The notes beneath the pieces were generated by a model. The model ran no database searches, was not told the DNA's origin, and saw nothing but the letters and a program-made list of their open reading frames with translations. From assembly GCF_002252635.1 (NCBI RefSeq), contig NZ_NQKX01000009.1:62001-126000 (forward strand): a DNA stretch of 64,000 nucleotides, in the 5' to 3' direction. Made by a program: the position numbers and the translations under genes. Positions 5,824-40,715 of this stretch are shown here, one piece after another; position 1 is the first letter of the stretch, and each line of letters starts with the position of its first letter. This stretch comes from Synechococcus sp. MW101C3. GTDB lineage: Bacteria; Cyanobacteriota; Cyanobacteriia; PCC-6307; Cyanobiaceae.

Positions 5824-7421
<1,598 letters not shown>

Positions 7422-7430
7422 GACCGGCCA

Positions 7431-11483: not shown

Positions 11484-11542
11484 GGCAGGAGCGTAGGGAG
11501 GACCGGGCCTGCTTAGGGTCGAGCCTGAGGCCGGGGGTGGCA

Positions 11543-12040
11543 ATGGCGAAGGCAGCGGGAAAGAAAGCCGCGCGGGCAGCCCGTGATGCGGCCAACCGCC
11601 TGCTGGCCGACAACCGCTTCGCCCGTCACCAGTACGAGATTCTCGAAACGCTGGAAACCGGTCTGGAGCTGGTGGGCACCGAGGTGAAGTCGATCCGGGC
11701 CGGCAAGGCCAACCTGCGCGATGGCTTCTGCCTGATCCGCCAAGGGGAACTGCAGCTGCACAACGTGCATATCTCGCCCCACAGCCACGCCGGCGCCTAT
11801 TTCAACCACGAGCCGCTGCGCACCCGCAAGCTGCTGGCCCACCGCCGCGAGATCGACAGGCTGCGCATCGCCATCGATCAGAAGGGGCTGACGCTCATCC
11901 CCCTGAACCTGCACCTCAAGGGCTCATGGATCAAGCTCACGCTCGGCCTGGCCAAGGGCCGCAAGCTGCACGACAAACGCCAGGAGGAGCGTCGCAAGGA
12001 CGCCGACAGGGAAGTGCGCGCGGCCTTGACCCGCGGCTGA
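11543..12040 (+). CDS. smpB: SsrA (tmRNA)-binding protein SmpB
   Basis: Partner of tmRNA in trans-translation, which rescues stalled ribosomes. 165 residues from ATG 11543, or 167 if the GTG at 11537 is used. Conserved segments include [31 protein letters not shown], the GKANLRDGF block, [19 protein letters not shown] and the basic C-terminal tail [19 protein letters not shown], which becomes helical in the ribosome. The tmRNA gene itself is not in this window. Confidence 0.97.
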
Positions 12041-12045
12041 ACCCG

Positions 12046-12068
12046 GCCACCGCCCCGGGCCCGGTGGC
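12046..12068 (+). terminator. candidate hairpin after smpB
   Basis: GCCACCG at 12046-12052 pairs perfectly with CGGTGGC at 12062-12068 around a 9-base GC-rich loop, a few bases after the smpB stop. There is no T-run, so it may slow or end transcription only weakly. Confidence 0.4.
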
Positions 12069-12107
12069 ACGCCATACAGTCGCCACGCCCCATCGCCAGC
12101 AGCTGCC

Positions 12108-13106
12108 ATGTCGGCATTGACCCGCTGCCTGCAGGAAGAGGCCGCCGCGATCGCCGCTGCCGCAGGCCGGATCGAAAGCTGCCAGGTGGATGCAGCCCTG
12201 GCGATGCTGGACCGCTGCGCCGACCAACGGGCCAAGCTCGTGATCACGGGGGTAGGCAAGAGCGGCATCGTGGCCCGCAAGATCGCGGCCACCTTCTCCT
12301 CGATCGGGCTGATGTCGCTGTACCTCAACCCGCTCGATGCCCTGCACGGAGACCTGGGTGTGGTGGCCCCGCAGGACGTGGTGCTGCTGCTCTCCAACAG
12401 CGGCGAAACCGGCGAACTGCTCGAAATCCTTCCCCACCTGCGCCGGCGTGGCACCGGCCGCATCGCCCTGGTGGGAAAACTGCAGTCGAGCCTGGCCCGC
12501 GGCTGCGATGTCGTGCTCGATGCCTCGGTGGACCGGGAGGTCTGCCCGCTCAATCTGGCCCCCACCGCCAGCACGGCGGTGGCGATGGCGATCGGCGATG
12601 CCCTGGCCGCCGTGTGGATGGAGCGGCGCGGCATCTCCCCGGCCGACTTCGCCCTCAACCATCCGGCCGGTGCGCTCGGCAAACAGCTCACGCTCACAGT
12701 GGCCGATCTGATGCTGCCCACCACCCAGCTGCATCCGCTGGAGGAAAGCGACAGCCTCAGCGCCGTGATCGCCCTGCTCACGCGCGATGGTGCCGGGGCC
12801 TGCTGGGTGCGCCGCAGCGGCGCGCCGCAGCAGCTGGCGGGCCTGATCACCGACGGCGACCTGCGCCGGGCCCTGGAGCAGAACGCCGCGTCCGGATGGG
12901 CTGAGCTGTGCGCCAGTCAGCTGATGACGGCCGATCCGATCACGGTGGGGCCGGGCATGCTGGCAGTGGAAGCGTTGGAACGCATGGAGCGCAACAGCCG
13001 CAAGCCGATCGGCGTGCTGCCCGTGCTCGACGACGCGGGAACCATGCTGGGCCTGCTGCGACTCCACGACCTGATCCAGGCGGGGCTGAGCCCCAGCTTG
13101 AGCTGA
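12108..13106 (+). CDS. kdsD: arabinose-5-phosphate isomerase KdsD
   Basis: Interconverts D-ribulose 5-phosphate and D-arabinose 5-phosphate, the first step of KDO synthesis. 332 residues: an N-terminal SIS domain (GVGKSGIVARKIAATFSSIG near 45-65, SNSGETGE for sugar-phosphate binding, the family LAPTASTAVAMAIGDALA block) and two C-terminal CBS domains (DLMLPTTQLHP..., QLMTADPITVGPGMLAVEAL...). This is the classic KdsD/GutQ architecture. With kdsB, kdsA and kdsC within 5 kb, the KDO role is well supported. Confidence 0.95.
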   Translation: MSALTRCLQEEAAAIAAAAGRIESCQVDAALAMLDRCADQRAKLVITGVGKSGIVARKIAATFSSIGLMSLYLNPLDALHGDLGVVAPQDVVLLLSNSGETGELLEILPHLRRRGTGRIALVGKLQSSLARGCDVVLDASVDREVCPLNLAPTASTAVAMAIGDALAAVWMERRGISPADFALNHPAGALGKQLTLTVADLMLPTTQLHPLEESDSLSAVIALLTRDGAGACWVRRSGAPQQLAGLITDGDLRRALEQNAASGWAELCASQLMTADPITVGPGMLAVEALERMERNSRKPIGVLPVLDDAGTMLGLLRLHDLIQAGLSPSLS

Positions 13107-25677: not shown

Positions 25678-26847
25678 CTATTCCTTTTGGCCCGACCTCT
25701 CTGCGCACTGGCTCAGAAGGGTGGCCAACTGGTCGTGGTGATGGCCCGTCGTGAACCTGGTCAGGCATCGATGGCGGCCTCGATTGCCGAGCCTTTCGGC
25801 AAAGGCGGGGTCAGCAGCCAGGCGGCTGATCGCTTTCCCCATCGCCTTCCAGTCCCCCTCGGGCACCAGGATCCCTGTCTCGCCGTCAATCACCACGTCC
25901 GGGATCCCCGCATGCCATGTGGCCACGACGGGCAAACCGCTCAGCTGGGCCTCCATCACCGCTACGGGTGAGCCTTCCTGGTCGCCATCGGGGGCGGTGA
26001 GCGAGTGTTGGAGGAAGCCTCTGCTGTGGCGCATCAACTCCGCCACCTCGGCAGGCGTCCGCAGGCCGGCAAAACTCACCCGTTCGGCGATGCCCAGCTG
26101 GATGGCCCGCTGGTGTGCCTGAGCGAGCAGGGGCCCCTCCCCGACCATCACCAGCTGGAGCTCTGGCAAGTCCCTGGCAGCCAGGGCGAAGGCGGCCAGG
26201 GTGAGCAGCGGACCTTTCTTGGCCACGAACCGACCGACACTGAGGAACAGGGGGGGGGCCGCGGCAGGATCGGCTCCGTGGAACACGGCTGGATTCGCCC
26301 CGGACGGACTCACCAGCACGGGCAGGGGGCTTGTTCGTCTGTGGGCCAGACCCAACACCGTCTTGCGCATGATCTCCGACTTCACCACAGCTGCGCTCGA
26401 GAGCTCCAGCAACCGCTCGTAGCGCTCCTTCAGGTGGAACAGGTAGCGGTGGGCGGATGCATCGGCCCCCCGGAAATGCACGATCAGGGGAAGGCCGGTG
26501 GCCGGAACCAGTTCCATGATCTGCACCGCATGGAAGCCGAACTCCGCCAGCACCACAACGGGTTGCTCTGTTCGGCAGATCCTGCTCACCAGCCGGGAGG
26601 GCAGCCAGGTGCCGAACCGCCTCACCGCTTGCGCCAGACATCTGGGAAGAGCCGGTGCCAGCCGATGGAGCGCCTTGCTGACCACAATCGAAAGGCCGTA
26701 GGCCGTCCGCAGCGGCGGGCCTGACCAGGGAATCTCGTCAGCGCAGACCACGACCGTGTCGAAGGGCAGCCCGGTGGCATTGGCCCTGATGAAGGTTTCC
26801 GAGGGTGCCCTGAGGCTTGGCACCAGGAGCAGCAACCGCTTAGCCAT
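25678..26847 (-). CDS. family 4 glycosyltransferase
   Basis: 389 residues with the GT-B fold. The N-terminus KRLLLLVPSLRAPSETFIRANATGLP is typical of GT4 enzymes, and the C-terminal half has FLSVGRFVAKKGPLLTLAAFALA, then GEGPLLAQAHQRAIQLGIAERVSFAGL, and the nucleotide-sugar EX7E-type region SPVAVMEAQLSGLPVVATWHAGIPDVV. It is the last gene of the eight-gene leftward operon. The codons near residue 197 include a run of nine C on the coding strand (26250-26258), in frame here. Its start overlaps the upstream GT4 stop by 8 bases. Sugar specificity is unknown. Confidence 0.9.
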   Translation of the reverse strand: MAKRLLLLVPSLRAPSETFIRANATGLPFDTVVVCADEIPWSGPPLRTAYGLSIVVSKALHRLAPALPRCLAQAVRRFGTWLPSRLVSRICRTEQPVVVLAEFGFHAVQIMELVPATGLPLIVHFRGADASAHRYLFHLKERYERLLELSSAAVVKSEIMRKTVLGLAHRRTSPLPVLVSPSGANPAVFHGADPAAAPPLFLSVGRFVAKKGPLLTLAAFALAARDLPELQLVMVGEGPLLAQAHQRAIQLGIAERVSFAGLRTPAEVAELMRHSRGFLQHSLTAPDGDQEGSPVAVMEAQLSGLPVVATWHAGIPDVVIDGETGILVPEGDWKAMGKAISRLAADPAFAERLGNRGRHRCLTRFTTGHHHDQLATLLSQCAERSGQKE

Positions 26848-35791: not shown

Positions 35792-36505
35792 TCAGGCGGC
35801 GACGGCCTCGGTGCTGCCGGTGCGCTGGCGCCGGGTGAGGAAGCCGAACAGCACCTTGCCGATGGCGGCCACCAGGTTGCCTTCCAACTCCTGGAACATC
35901 ACCATGTTGAGGTGGAAGGCGTGGTTGGCCTCCTCCACGATGCGATCGGCCGTGGCTTGATCAATCGGCAACTGATCGAGGCTTTCGCGATAGCTGGCCT
36001 TGAAGGCCTTCTCATCGGGAATGGCATCGAATTCGTAGAACCGCAGGCCATCGTGTTCGCCCAGGTTCATCGCTTTCTGAGCGATGTTCTTGAGGATCTG
36101 GCCGCCGGAAAGGTCGCCGATGTAGCGGGTGTAGTGGTGACCCACCAGCAGCTCGGGGGATTCTTTGGCCACCTGATGAAGGCGTTCCACGTACTTCTGG
36201 GCGCCCGGAGTGGGCTGCACCTGCTGACGCCAGCCGGCGCCGAAGTAGAAGGCAAGATCAGCCTCAAGAGCGCTGCGGCGGTTGAGGGCGTCGTGGGCGA
36301 TAGGCCCCACCACCGGGTGAGACTTGAGGGCGCCGATCTCTTCCTCCATCGCGCTGTACACGAAGTAGAGGTCGGCGACCAGCTTGCGGTAGCTGATCTT
36401 GTCGACCACCCCTTTGAGAAAGCAGGTGACGAAGCCGGTGTTCTCGGCCATCGTGTGCGCCTTTTTGGTGCCTTCGCGCAACTGTGAAGCAAGGGCGACA
36501 GCCAT
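35792..36505 (-). CDS. ho1: heme oxygenase (biliverdin-producing)
   Basis: Opens heme to biliverdin IX-alpha with ferredoxin as donor, the first step to phycobilins. 237 residues from ATG 36503-36505. Family signs: LREGTKKAHTMAENTGFV with the proximal His ligand (TKKAHT), FVYSAMEEEIG, HHYTRYIGDLSGGQILKNIAQKA (distal helix, GDLSGG), and FYEFDAIPDEKAFKASYRE. The C-terminal 20 residues are variable. It is transcribed leftward, like its right-hand neighbour of unknown function 77 bases upstream. Confidence 0.97.
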   Translation of the reverse strand: MAVALASQLREGTKKAHTMAENTGFVTCFLKGVVDKISYRKLVADLYFVYSAMEEEIGALKSHPVVGPIAHDALNRRSALEADLAFYFGAGWRQQVQPTPGAQKYVERLHQVAKESPELLVGHHYTRYIGDLSGGQILKNIAQKAMNLGEHDGLRFYEFDAIPDEKAFKASYRESLDQLPIDQATADRIVEEANHAFHLNMVMFQELEGNLVAAIGKVLFGFLTRRQRTGSTEAVAA

Positions 36506-36582
36506 AGAAGCCGGTGTGCCGTAGGTCGTGGCCAACAAGTTAGGGCCGTGCTGCCGGCACGGGCGGCTCAGGTTGCGAAGGG

Positions 36583-37044
36583 TTAAGCGGCCTCGTCGCT
36601 GGCGGCGGCGGCTGGCCCCTCGCCCAGCAGGGCGAACAGGTCGCGGCAGACGAGCCGCAGCTTCTCCGCCACCTCGGGCTGGGGCAGGTTCACCCCACTC
36701 GCTTCCCAGTCGCCCACGGTGGCGAGCCGCCACTGCTCGCCCTGGAAGGTCATGCCGCTGAGCAGCACCCCCAGCAGCCGCGGGGTACCGCCGCCACCGG
36801 CGACCGGAGCCTCGGCGAGGCGCAGCTGCATCAGCAGGCTGCGGCACTGCAGGCGGGGGCTCCAGCCGGGGAAGTGGAAGGCCAGGTCCACCGAGGCCTG
36901 CTCCTCGAAGCGGCGGGTGTCGGGGTCGTCGCGCCAGGGGGTGAGATTGGCGCGGGCATCAGGGAAATGGCGCCGGAACAGGGCGGCGGCGGAGGCGATG
37001 GCGTGGGCCATCTCCGGACTTCGGGCCAGGTCTGCCGCATTCAT
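36583..37044 (-). CDS. conserved-looking cytosolic protein, unknown function
   Basis: 153 residues from ATG 37042-37044, divergent from icd. Contains RRHFPDARANLTPWRDDPDTRRFEEQASVDLAFHFPGWSPRLQCRSLLMQLRL, an ordered-looking block, and a central GVLLSGMTFQGEQWRLATVGDWE. No membrane segment or known motif. It may be a picocyanobacterial orphan family. It sits 77 bases before the heme oxygenase gene on the same strand, so the two may share a transcript. Confidence 0.62.
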   Translation of the reverse strand: MNAADLARSPEMAHAIASAAALFRRHFPDARANLTPWRDDPDTRRFEEQASVDLAFHFPGWSPRLQCRSLLMQLRLAEAPVAGGGGTPRLLGVLLSGMTFQGEQWRLATVGDWEASGVNLPQPEVAEKLRLVCRDLFALLGEGPAAAASDEAA

Positions 37045-37079
37045 GGCGTTTCCCCTGAGCAGAACAGCGGATGGAACGG

Positions 37080-37089
37080 AACCTAGGCT
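37080..37089. promoter_or_regulatory. possible back-to-back -10 elements between the 36.6-kb gene and icd
   Basis: The 10-mer AACCTAGGCT contains TAGGCT on the plus strand (37084-37089), facing icd, and TAGGTT on the minus strand (37085-37080), facing the unknown gene. Both fit the loose TAnnnT -10 pattern. No convincing -35 elements are seen. Confidence 0.35.
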
Positions 37090-37196
37090 CCGCGAGCCGA
37101 CCCATGCTGGAGTTTCCCGAGGGAGGCTGCGCCAGCGGGCCGGCACCACGACCACGGACCGCCGTCGGTCGCGCCGTTTCCCCCCTCCTGCCGCCG

Positions 37197-38642
<1,446 letters not shown>

Positions 38643-38643
38643 A

Positions 38644-38660
38644 GCCCGGAGATTCCGGGC
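38644..38660 (+). terminator. candidate hairpin after icd
   Basis: GCCCGGA (38644-38650) pairs with TCCGGGC (38654-38660) around a 3-base loop, starting one base after the icd stop. No T-run follows; a GC-only hairpin like this may still act in cyanobacteria. Confidence 0.45.
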
Positions 38661-38688
38661 AGGGGTGCGGCCGAGGACAATCGGGGGG

Positions 38689-38825
38689 ATGCGTGCCCCC
38701 CCCATCAGATCGCTCGCAGAGCCGAGATCGACGGCCTCAGAGCCGTCGCCATCGTTGCCGTCATCGTCAACCACCTGAACAAGTCCCTGCTGCCGAGCGG
38801 CTATGTCGGGGTTGACGTTTTTTTT
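38689..38825 (+). other. 5' coding segment of the acyltransferase, out of frame with its only ATG
   Basis: Codons from 38718 on read RAEIDGLRAVAIVAVIV-N-H-LN and then YVGVDVFF, the unmistakable beginning of an acyltransferase_3 protein, in the same frame as the downstream gene. No ATG, GTG or TTG lies in that frame between about 38664 and 38826. The only nearby ATG (38689-38691) is in another frame. One extra base between them, most naturally in the C8 run at 38696-38703, would give M-R-A-P-P-H-Q-I-A-R-R-A-E-I-D and a full-length protein. Confidence 0.8.
38696..38703 (+). repeat. homopolymer run C8
   Basis: Eight C in a row, seven bases after the start of the ATG at 38689. With nine C the ATG would read into the acyltransferase frame; with eight it does not. 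Runs of this length slip during replication and are also prone to sequencing error. Confidence 0.9.
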
Positions 38826-40715
38826 GTGATCTCCGGCTACGTGATCACCCGATCGCTGGAGCACAGGCCAACGGCCGACAGCCGCGGAGCCTTCCTGGCC
38901 GGGTTCTACCGCCGACGCATCCAGCGACTGGTCCCGGCTCTGAGCGCTTGTGTCGTCGTCACCGCCTTGCTGACCTGCCTGGTGGTTCCTGATCCGGCGG
39001 CCTCCCTGTGGACAGGGCTTCTTGCGCTGGCGGGGGCCTCGAACGTGTTCCTGCACCAGCAGGCCACCGATTACTTCGGCACCAGCGCCCAGCTCAACAG
39101 CTTCACCCAGACCTGGTTCCTGGGTGTGGATTATCAGTTTTATCTGGTGTTTCCGCTGGCTGCCTGGCAGCTCGGACTTGGCAGAGCCGGGGGAGCGGGG
39201 CGAAGGCGGTTTCGCCTGGGGATGGCCCTGGTGGCCGTGCTGTCACTGATCCTGTTCCTGCAGATGCGGCAGGTCGATTCATCCGCCGCCTACTTCCTCA
39301 CGGGGCCGAGAGTCTGGGAGTTGGCGGTCGGTTGTCTGCTGACTGCGAACGGGGAGGATCCGCAGGGGGAACCCGGACAGGCCCCCCTTCGCGACGGGCT
39401 GGCTTGGGGGGCCTTCCTGGCTCTGGTCGGCGTGACCCTGGCGCCCCAGGGTTCCAGTTCGATCCCGATGCTGGTCAGCGTGGCGGCAACCTGCGCGCTG
39501 ATCCGAACCCTGCGGGGACGTTCCTTGCTCGGCCGGCTCCTCACGTGCCCCCCGGTGCTCCGCATCGGCCAGATTTCGTACTCGCTCTACCTGTGGCACT
39601 GGAGCGTCATCGTGCTCAGCCGCTGGACGATCGGCATCCACGCCTGGAGTGTGCCGTTTCAGTTGCTGCTGATCCTGGGGCTGGCAGAACTGTCCTACCG
39701 GACGCTTGAAACCCCCTTCGGTTCGAAGCCGTGGGCCCCCACCAACCAACAGACCATCCTGATCGGAGTCGGAATCAACACCGCCGCCGCAACCATGCTG
39801 CTGTTGCTGATCGGCGGAGGGCTCGGACCCCATCTTTATCTCGGCCAGCGGCCGGCCACGTTGTCCGAGGAACGGCGGAACCAGCGCATTGCCGGCACGA
39901 CCATCACCTCAACGGCCTGTCTGATCGATCGAAACGATGTGCTCGATCGCCCTCAGATCGATGCCAAGGCCAGGACCTGCTCGGTCGAGTCCGCGCCCCA
40001 GGGCGCAGCCCAAGGTCGGACCATCTTCGTGGTCGGTGACAGCCATGCCACTGCCTTGATTCCCCTGGCCGCCGAGCTCCACCGGGAGGGCGCCGGAATC
40101 ACACTGCTGACCAAAGCCGGCTGCCCGTTCCCGGCCACCGCATTCGGCCATCTGGATCCTGGCTGTGAGCGCTTCCAGGATGAGATTGCTTCCCGGATCC
40201 TCGCCACCAGCCGACCCGGAGATGGCGTTCTGATCGCGGGCTATCAGCTCAGTCACCTGGGCAGCGGCCTGCGGGCCACCCGTGACCATTTCCTGGATCG
40301 AACCGGACAGCCGGTGCGGGGCACCGAAGCGAAGACGGCGCTTTACATGAAGGCGCTGGATGCCTTTTCAGACAGGGCTGGTGCCAAGGGGCTGCAGGTC
40401 GCCCTGATCGGGGCCAGTCCGAGGCTGATCGGACGGGAGCTCTGTCTGCCGGAGTGGTTCCGCCCCGCTCGATGGAGCGAGCCCTGCCTGAACACCCTGC
40501 GAGAGGATGCCACCTCCACCAGGACGATCAACGTTCAACTGAGCCGGAATCTCCCTGACCGCGTGCGCTTCATCGATCCGATGCCGTGGATCTGCCCGAA
40601 GGGCTGCTCCCTCGACGATCTGAAGTGGCAGCTGGCCGACGACGACCATCTCACCGCCGCGGCGGTTCGGCGGCTGAAGCAGCCGGTCCTGGAAGCCCTG
40701 AGCCGGGCAGACTGA
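38826..40715 (+). CDS. acyltransferase 3 (OafA-type) with C-terminal SGNH domain, 5' end frameshifted
   Basis: In the visible frame it begins at GTG 38826 with ISGYVITRSLEH, in the middle of the first conserved acyltransferase_3 block, giving 629 residues. Ten or so membrane helices form the transferase part. The soluble C-terminal half shows FVVGDSHATALIPLA (GDSH block) and a terminal DDDHLTAAAVRRL (Asp-x-x-His), the SGNH hydrolase triad. Such fusions O-acetylate O-antigen or exopolysaccharide sugars. The catalytic-type His of the N-terminal block (VNH) lies upstream of 38826, so the protein as read would lack it. Either the gene is off in this sequence or a base is missing. Confidence 0.82.
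   Translation: MISGYVITRSLEHRPTADSRGAFLAGFYRRRIQRLVPALSACVVVTALLTCLVVPDPAASLWTGLLALAGASNVFLHQQATDYFGTSAQLNSFTQTWFLGVDYQFYLVFPLAAWQLGLGRAGGAGRRRFRLGMALVAVLSLILFLQMRQVDSSAAYFLTGPRVWELAVGCLLTANGEDPQGEPGQAPLRDGLAWGAFLALVGVTLAPQGSSSIPMLVSVAATCALIRTLRGRSLLGRLLTCPPVLRIGQISYSLYLWHWSVIVLSRWTIGIHAWSVPFQLLLILGLAELSYRTLETPFGSKPWAPTNQQTILIGVGINTAAATMLLLLIGGGLGPHLYLGQRPATLSEERRNQRIAGTTITSTACLIDRNDVLDRPQIDAKARTCSVESAPQGAAQGRTIFVVGDSHATALIPLAAELHREGAGITLLTKAGCPFPATAFGHLDPGCERFQDEIASRILATSRPGDGVLIAGYQLSHLGSGLRATRDHFLDRTGQPVRGTEAKTALYMKALDAFSDRAGAKGLQVALIGASPRLIGRELCLPEWFRPARWSEPCLNTLREDATSTRTINVQLSRNLPDRVRFIDPMPWICPKGCSLDDLKWQLADDDHLTAAAVRRLKQPVLEALSRAD

Follow-up and report, generated by a model that had tools for sequence, protein, structure and literature searches.

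An acyltransferase gene beside icd in Synechococcus sp. MW101C3 is probably either off or expressed from an unusual start

The window analyzed here is a stretch of 64,000 nucleotides, positions 62001-126000 of contig 9 in an assembly of 3.03 Mb in 18 contigs, with the gene content of a picocyanobacterium (Cyanobiaceae). On its plus strand it carries a gene at 37071-38642 that we take to be icd (isocitrate dehydrogenase) and, directly 3' of it, a stop-free frame at 38643-40715 that encodes an acyltransferase, the family-conserved part of which begins at about 38718. The TGA of icd (38640-38642) lies in the acyltransferase frame, 90 nt from the aspartate codon of a DGLR motif. No ATG, GTG, or TTG codon was found in this frame upstream of a GTG at 38826, which opens an ORF of 629 residues (38826-40715, plus strand), and the only in-frame near-cognate codons between the icd stop and the DGLR motif are ATT at 38652, ATC at 38709, and ATC at 38727. 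The GTG was rejected as the normal start, since the R-X10-H motif of the first helix falls within the 39 codons upstream of it, which are conserved at the protein level; the ORF that it opens also lacks the first 52 positions of the acyltransferase (AT3) profile. An ATG is present farther upstream (38689-38691), with a Shine-Dalgarno-like GAGGA (38673-38677) 11 nt ahead of it, and is followed, starting 4 nt past the ATG codon, by a run of eight C residues (38696-38703) across which it is offset by one nucleotide from the acyltransferase frame. The ORF that begins at this ATG has 29 codons (38689-38778) and ends at a TGA (38776-38778) within the acyltransferase gene. The first-pass annotation had pointed to this arrangement, and both its positions for the ATG, the C8 run, and a T8 run and its frame arithmetic, with the ATG one nucleotide out of register, are correct by the sequence. 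It did not mention that the third frame also has a GTG, at 38693, opening an ORF that stops at 38815, nor the ATC that stands in place of the start codon in two related species, described below. As had been anticipated, the C8 run is ordinary in itself, because a first-order model predicts 2.3 such runs per 64 kb, and one was found.

The frame matches the Acyl_transf_3 profile (PF01757) with 99.8 bits against a curated cut-off of 31, which bears out the earlier assignment to this family, and a fused C-terminal SGNH domain (PF19040) matches with 89.8 bits against a cut-off of 27. An R-X-X-R-type motif is present (RRRIQRL, 38910-38930), as are GDSH in VVGDSHA (40029-40049) and DDDH in DDDHLT (40638-40655), the motifs with a catalytic role in SGNH domains. 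The R-X10-H motif, as defined in PMC9833829, spans 38739-38774, with its arginine codon at 38739 and its histidine codon at 38772. By these matches, the gene encodes a full two-domain AT3-SGNH O-acyltransferase of the membrane, and the genome contains no other match to Acyl_transf_3. No solved structure matched the acyltransferase by sequence at E values up to 0.001. It shares with OafB of Salmonella and enzymes of that type, as they are described in PMC9833829 and PMC9558356, the AT3 domain with fused SGNH domain, the R-X10-H motif in the first helix, GDSH, and DDDH; unlike OafB, it is cyanobacterial, adjoins icd, and has its start out of frame. The target of acylation would be a surface glycan. 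The neighboring genes, presumably icd, a glycolate-oxidase-like gene, and a heme-oxygenase-like gene, give no substrate.

Relatives were sought by DNA searches of 400 genomes of the family, three genera (4, 9, and 3 genomes), 398 genomes of the order, and 394 relatives of one of the orthologous genomes (G106), with two candidates scored per genome in the large scans and with overlap between the genome sets. Among the matches listed, three are close orthologs, in G130 (84% DNA identity), G179 (76%), and G106 (75%), and a protein tree groups the window copy with G130 (support 0.996) and G179 with G106 (0.956). The gene follows icd in nine other genomes, namely these three and six more distant ones that belong to one genus (G386, G347, G302, G185, G370, and G284). 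The icd stop lies 86 nt from the aspartate of DGLR in G130, 81 nt in G179, and 99 nt in G106, and the six distant genomes have 194-581 nt between the end of icd and the motif. Protein and DNA searches found no true copy in the two other genomes of the window's own genus, one of which (G001) is only 88% complete. A DNA match in the other (G002) was rejected as a remnant of the gene; it falls in another coding region, which we take to be P-type-ATPase-like, and is spurious. A wider contig scan, in which records near the window's genome may have been left out, gave a best identity of 43% and no close ortholog among the best 80 of 589 confirmed loci.

The orthologs were compared at the codon 14 positions ahead of the DGLR aspartate (codon -14). 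In G130 it is an in-frame ATG with AAGGAG 9 nt ahead, which aligns with the GAGGA of the window, and it is on the basis of this in-frame ATG and ribosome site at the aligned place that ATG 38689 is the homologous start, as the first-pass annotation had supposed. In the window, codon -14 reads GAT (38688-38690), and the ATG falls one base later. In G179 and G106 the same codon is ATC, preceded in G179 by GGGAG at 7 nt and in G106 by a weak ribosome site, and neither genome has an in-frame ATG, GTG, or TTG from the icd stop to the motif. This ATC is the sole near-cognate codon there, apart from a conserved isoleucine codon at -1. The first canonical codons are the TTG for the leucine of the motif in G106 and a GTG for a valine behind the motif in G179, and initiation at either would remove conserved residues from the protein. 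Between codon -14 and the motif, the sequences of G130, G179, and G106 align without indels, and the distance from icd to the motif varies, which together point to codon -14 as the start in all three. Codon -14 is thus most likely where translation begins in G130, G179, and G106, with AUC used in two of them, and the alignment suggests that the orthologs of G179 and G106 are candidate AUC-initiated genes; as the two genomes are sisters in the tree, the ATC may reflect one event. The likeness is to infC of Escherichia coli, with its AUU start, and to CDS177, which PMC12350097 describes as a candidate AUC-start gene, in that AUC stands where a relative has AUG; G179 and G106 differ in being candidates by sequence comparison, and the window copy differs in having no AUC at the aligned place. 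In the distant genus, five of the six members have an in-frame ATG at -31 and a GTG at -8. In the remaining one, G302, the genus-conserved ATG is out of frame and opens a 23-codon ORF whose TGA overlaps the GTG at -8 (GTGA), an arrangement like that of coupled translation.

Of the four close orthologs, the window copy included, three therefore have no canonical start ahead of the motif, and they arrived at this by two routes. Such an absence is rare among related genes: with 51 loci set aside for lack of a motif in a long frame and 13 as duplicates, 82 distinct loci were left of the 146 AT3 loci scanned, and each of the 82 has an in-frame canonical codon no more than 30 codons from the motif. 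This control is lenient, as a chance ATG, GTG, or TTG in 30 codons is common, yet only one of the four close orthologs passes it. A control on neighboring genes in the window and three syntenic contigs flagged 11 of 114 tests as lacking a nearby canonical start. Three of the 11 were the acyltransferase itself, another was a thiC-like gene (5826-7221, minus strand) explained by the TPP riboswitch upstream of it, and the other seven, judged from the listing, appear to reflect an overlapping neighbor, a shadow frame, or a start located slightly within the gene, by a few codons. The absence of a canonical start in the window copy is beyond chance. The infC gene, which in E. coli starts with AUU, starts with ATG in all six genomes checked, and no second gene with a non-AUG start was found. 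The riboswitch (Rfam RF00059, 62.6 bits) lies at 7303-7428 on the minus strand, ahead of the thiC-like gene.

The leader of the gene contains a further conserved element. GGTANGGTC occurs 23 nt ahead of the ATC in both G179 and G106 and 30 nt ahead of the ATG in five of the six genomes of the distant genus, with G370 carrying it with one mismatch, so that it is found in eight of the nine relatives; nothing like it was seen in the upstream region of G130. Elsewhere it is rare, with two matches on both strands of 124 kb, equal to the number of known sites in the stretches searched. In the window, the site is occupied by GGCAGGGGT (38658-38666, plus strand), at the same 23-nt spacing to the start and in degraded form, and no exact GGTANGGTC occurs anywhere in the window, against 0.44 expected. 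Cyanobacterial -10 elements follow the pattern TAnnnT, and GGTANGGTC is perhaps a -10 box, which suggests that the acyltransferase may have its own promoter in G179 and G106. The nearest upstream ATG in G179 is part of GGTANGGTC and, if the element is indeed a -10 box, would be no start. No sigma-70-type promoter match was found in 38560-38860 of the window. Readthrough of the icd stop, which shares the acyltransferase frame in the window, G179, and G106 but not in G130, is not favored as a route to expression because the distances differ (90, 81, and 99 nt), the intervening stretch is poorly conserved, and the -10-like element suggests a separate promoter. A hairpin at the start was likewise dropped. 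The G6 and C8 runs around the ATG of the window can pair so as to leave the ATG looped out, and predicted loops contain or adjoin the other three starts as well. Windows of 40-60 nt around the starts are nevertheless not unusually stable compared with 600 random windows of the same contig; in GC-matched comparisons, the lowest fraction was 0.032 (for the 40-nt window of G130 and for one of the two 60-nt windows of G179), and those for G106 ranged from 0.74 to 0.97.

The coding sequence itself shows the marks of purifying selection. Across the six pairs of the four orthologs, dN/dS is 0.30-0.375 over about 660 codons, and in the 39 codons just 5' of GTG 38826 it is 0.08-0.36, which indicates that this stretch is translated in the acyltransferase frame in the ortholog group. 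With changes polarized by G179 and G106, the window branch carries 40 nonsynonymous (N) and 51 synonymous (S) changes over the whole gene, against 38 N and 29 S on the G130 branch (p = 0.15), so that the window copy is about as constrained overall as the intact copy of G130. When the gene is divided into its two domains, a split chosen after seeing the data, the AT3 half has 12 N and 35 S on the window branch against 22 N and 14 S on that of G130 (Fisher p = 0.0016), and the SGNH half has 28 N and 16 S against 16 N and 15 S (p = 0.35). No second lesion was found in the 2 kb of 38643-40715. Constraint like that of an intact copy implies that the gene fell out of register recently or that the shift is reversible or tolerated.

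The reading that we prefer, at a probability of roughly one half, is that this is a recently decoupled allele, in which ATG 38689 is the true start and a change of one nucleotide in the C tract has turned the gene off in the sequenced clone. The ancestor would have been in register, as G130 is, and a slip of one base in the tract behind the ATG would have sent ribosomes from that ATG into the 29-codon dead-end frame, leaving the sequenced clone with little or no enzyme and an unmodified surface glycan. The C8 run would then be real in the chromosome, and the slip would in principle be reversible at the rates at which homopolymers slip; some enzyme may also leak through slippage of RNA polymerase or of the ribosome. 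Precedent exists for both parts of this mechanism. A homopolymer of slip-prone length does lie between the start codon and the body of the gene, and in Neisseria meningitidis runs of at least eight are described as predominantly variable (PMC5084427). Homonucleotide runs of 3-8, G and C included, are described in PMC3812077 as permitting slippage or bypass that restores a functional protein, the sole run of eight in that account being of A; the likeness is a one-base indel at a run of up to eight identical bases in a functional gene, and the difference is that here the indel falls right behind the start codon and in C8, a run absent from that study. The closest parallel is oafA of Haemophilus influenzae, an AT3 gene reported to be phase variable and frameshifted in the sequenced strain Rd (PMC9558356). 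Phase-variable expression is reported for oafA, whereas the window offers one sequence and a tract that is absent from three orthologs. Against the off allele stand the branch counts for the whole gene and for the SGNH half, which do not favor constraint, and two observations from the comparison of leaders, namely that the degraded -10-like element is compatible as well with a gradual loss of the gene and that G179 and G106 have no canonical start ahead of the motif, so that canonical initiation may be unneeded for this gene.

Whether cells use the tract as an on/off switch is a separate question, and we consider it unlikely that they do. Comparison of the tract in relatives, proposed in the first-pass annotation as a check on phase variation, went against a switch, with C8 in none of the three close orthologs (G130, G179, and G106). 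Long G and C runs are also depleted in the assembly: in 344 kb, the window included, there are 10 of length at least 8 against about 42 expected (first-order model values summed up to length 10), an approximately fourfold depletion. An adaptive switch is therefore unproven, as the tract is kept in no close ortholog, such runs are depleted, and there is one sequence only. Runs of at least 7 are approximately threefold rarer than expected in the same 344 kb (41 against about 138).

The alternatives named in the first-pass annotation alongside a switch (a dead allele, an error, and a non-canonical start) were the right ones to weigh. An error in sequencing or assembly would mean that the tract is in register in the chromosome and the gene is as ordinary as that of G130. 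Homopolymers are a classical site of error, and one error here would be enough; purifying selection on the gene and the alignment of ATG, Shine-Dalgarno sequence, and N terminus with G130 are what an error would leave behind. The rest of the assembly gives a different picture. Of the nine other G or C runs of at least 8, four lie at gene borders or outside genes, and all five coding ones are frame-intact, two by automatic scoring (26250 in the window and 57880 in contig 6) and three by reading their translations (7823 and 8911 in contig 6, and 32834 in contig 9). The run at 26250 is a G9 through which three relatives align; the others lie in a gene that is presumably SufD-like, in a presumably helicase-like gene that holds two G8 runs, and in a small ORF. 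Four runs with an apparent frame change (three of length 7 and one of length 8) read as gene boundaries. The automatic score labels the C8 run of the window as lying in one frame, since icd and the acyltransferase share it, and would alone miss the break. A scan for frame breaks against three relatives flagged five places, one of which is the acyltransferase, where the frame of G130 continues through icd. None of the rest is a break: two at about 7,240-7,370 belong to the leader, with its riboswitch, of the thiC-like gene, the plus-strand frames at 36393-37068 are a shadow of a region where the coding score favors the minus strand, and 11534-12635 contains the boundary of two adjacent plus-strand genes. 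The two scans argue against a carelessly made assembly and so weaken the idea of a generally error-prone sequence, although a single error is possible and the sample small; we do not favor an error and judge it unlikely.

Two further explanations accept the sequence as it stands, and each seems quite improbable to us. If the gene is expressed as is, translation would begin at a non-AUG codon (ATC 38709, seven codons ahead of the DGLR aspartate, or through coupling to icd) or would depend on steady slippage of RNA polymerase or the ribosome on C8. The ORF is constrained, G179 and G106 manage with no canonical start in front of the motif, PMC12350097 cites AUC as one of the seven codons that initiate most strongly in E. 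coli, and the slippery sequence C CCC CCC is correctly phased for a -1 shift. On the other side, AUC is a weak initiator relative to AUG, no ribosome site is visible in front of ATC 38709, the aligned start codon of the window is GAT, no sigma-70-type match was found around the start, and infC begins with ATG in all six genomes checked, with no second non-AUG start found. A dead allele, in which the slip is fixed and the gene is being lost with no return, would account for a start out of register together with a degraded upstream element, for the lack of a match in the two other genomes of the genus (the spurious DNA match in G002 aside, and with G001 incomplete), and for the 28 N and 16 S on the window branch in the SGNH half. 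The intact ORF and the strong constraint on the AT3 half of the window branch count against it, so that any death must be recent; a long-dead allele, as one form of the earlier proposal, is weakened by that half, and the SGNH half does not carry the same signal. Taking the off allele and these alternatives together, we think it probable that the gene is either off or expressed from an unusual start.

That G179 and G106 have ATC in place of the start makes this a matter of more than one tract. It is possible, if doubtful, that the icd-linked start region acts as an evolutionary dial on surface acylation in one picocyanobacterial family, with AUC in two species and one-base uncoupling of the leader in two (the window and G302), and that weak, leaky, or switchable initiation is normal in part of the group. 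In Salmonella, O-antigen acetylation by an AT3-SGNH enzyme protects cells from lysis by a phage (PMC9558356), and if expression in these cyanobacteria depends on a single tract or a weak AUC start, the cells would have an inexpensive means of varying the surface that cyanophages meet. No report of a phase-variable acyltransferase in cyanobacteria was found in the literature searched, and the lack of a canonical start ahead of the motif in three of four close orthologs, by two routes, is the part worth an experiment. There are also implications for annotation, as gene callers that accept ATG, GTG, and TTG only would truncate AUC-started proteins in or behind the catalytic motif or miss the start altogether.

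The T8 run at 38818-38825, which had been noted as a second tract in the same gene, is indeed present, and such a run is unusual in this DNA (one in the window against 0.01 expected per 64 kb). It breaks nothing; it is in frame, encodes a conserved V-F-F, and is not the source of the break. At the same place, G130 and G106 have T7C.
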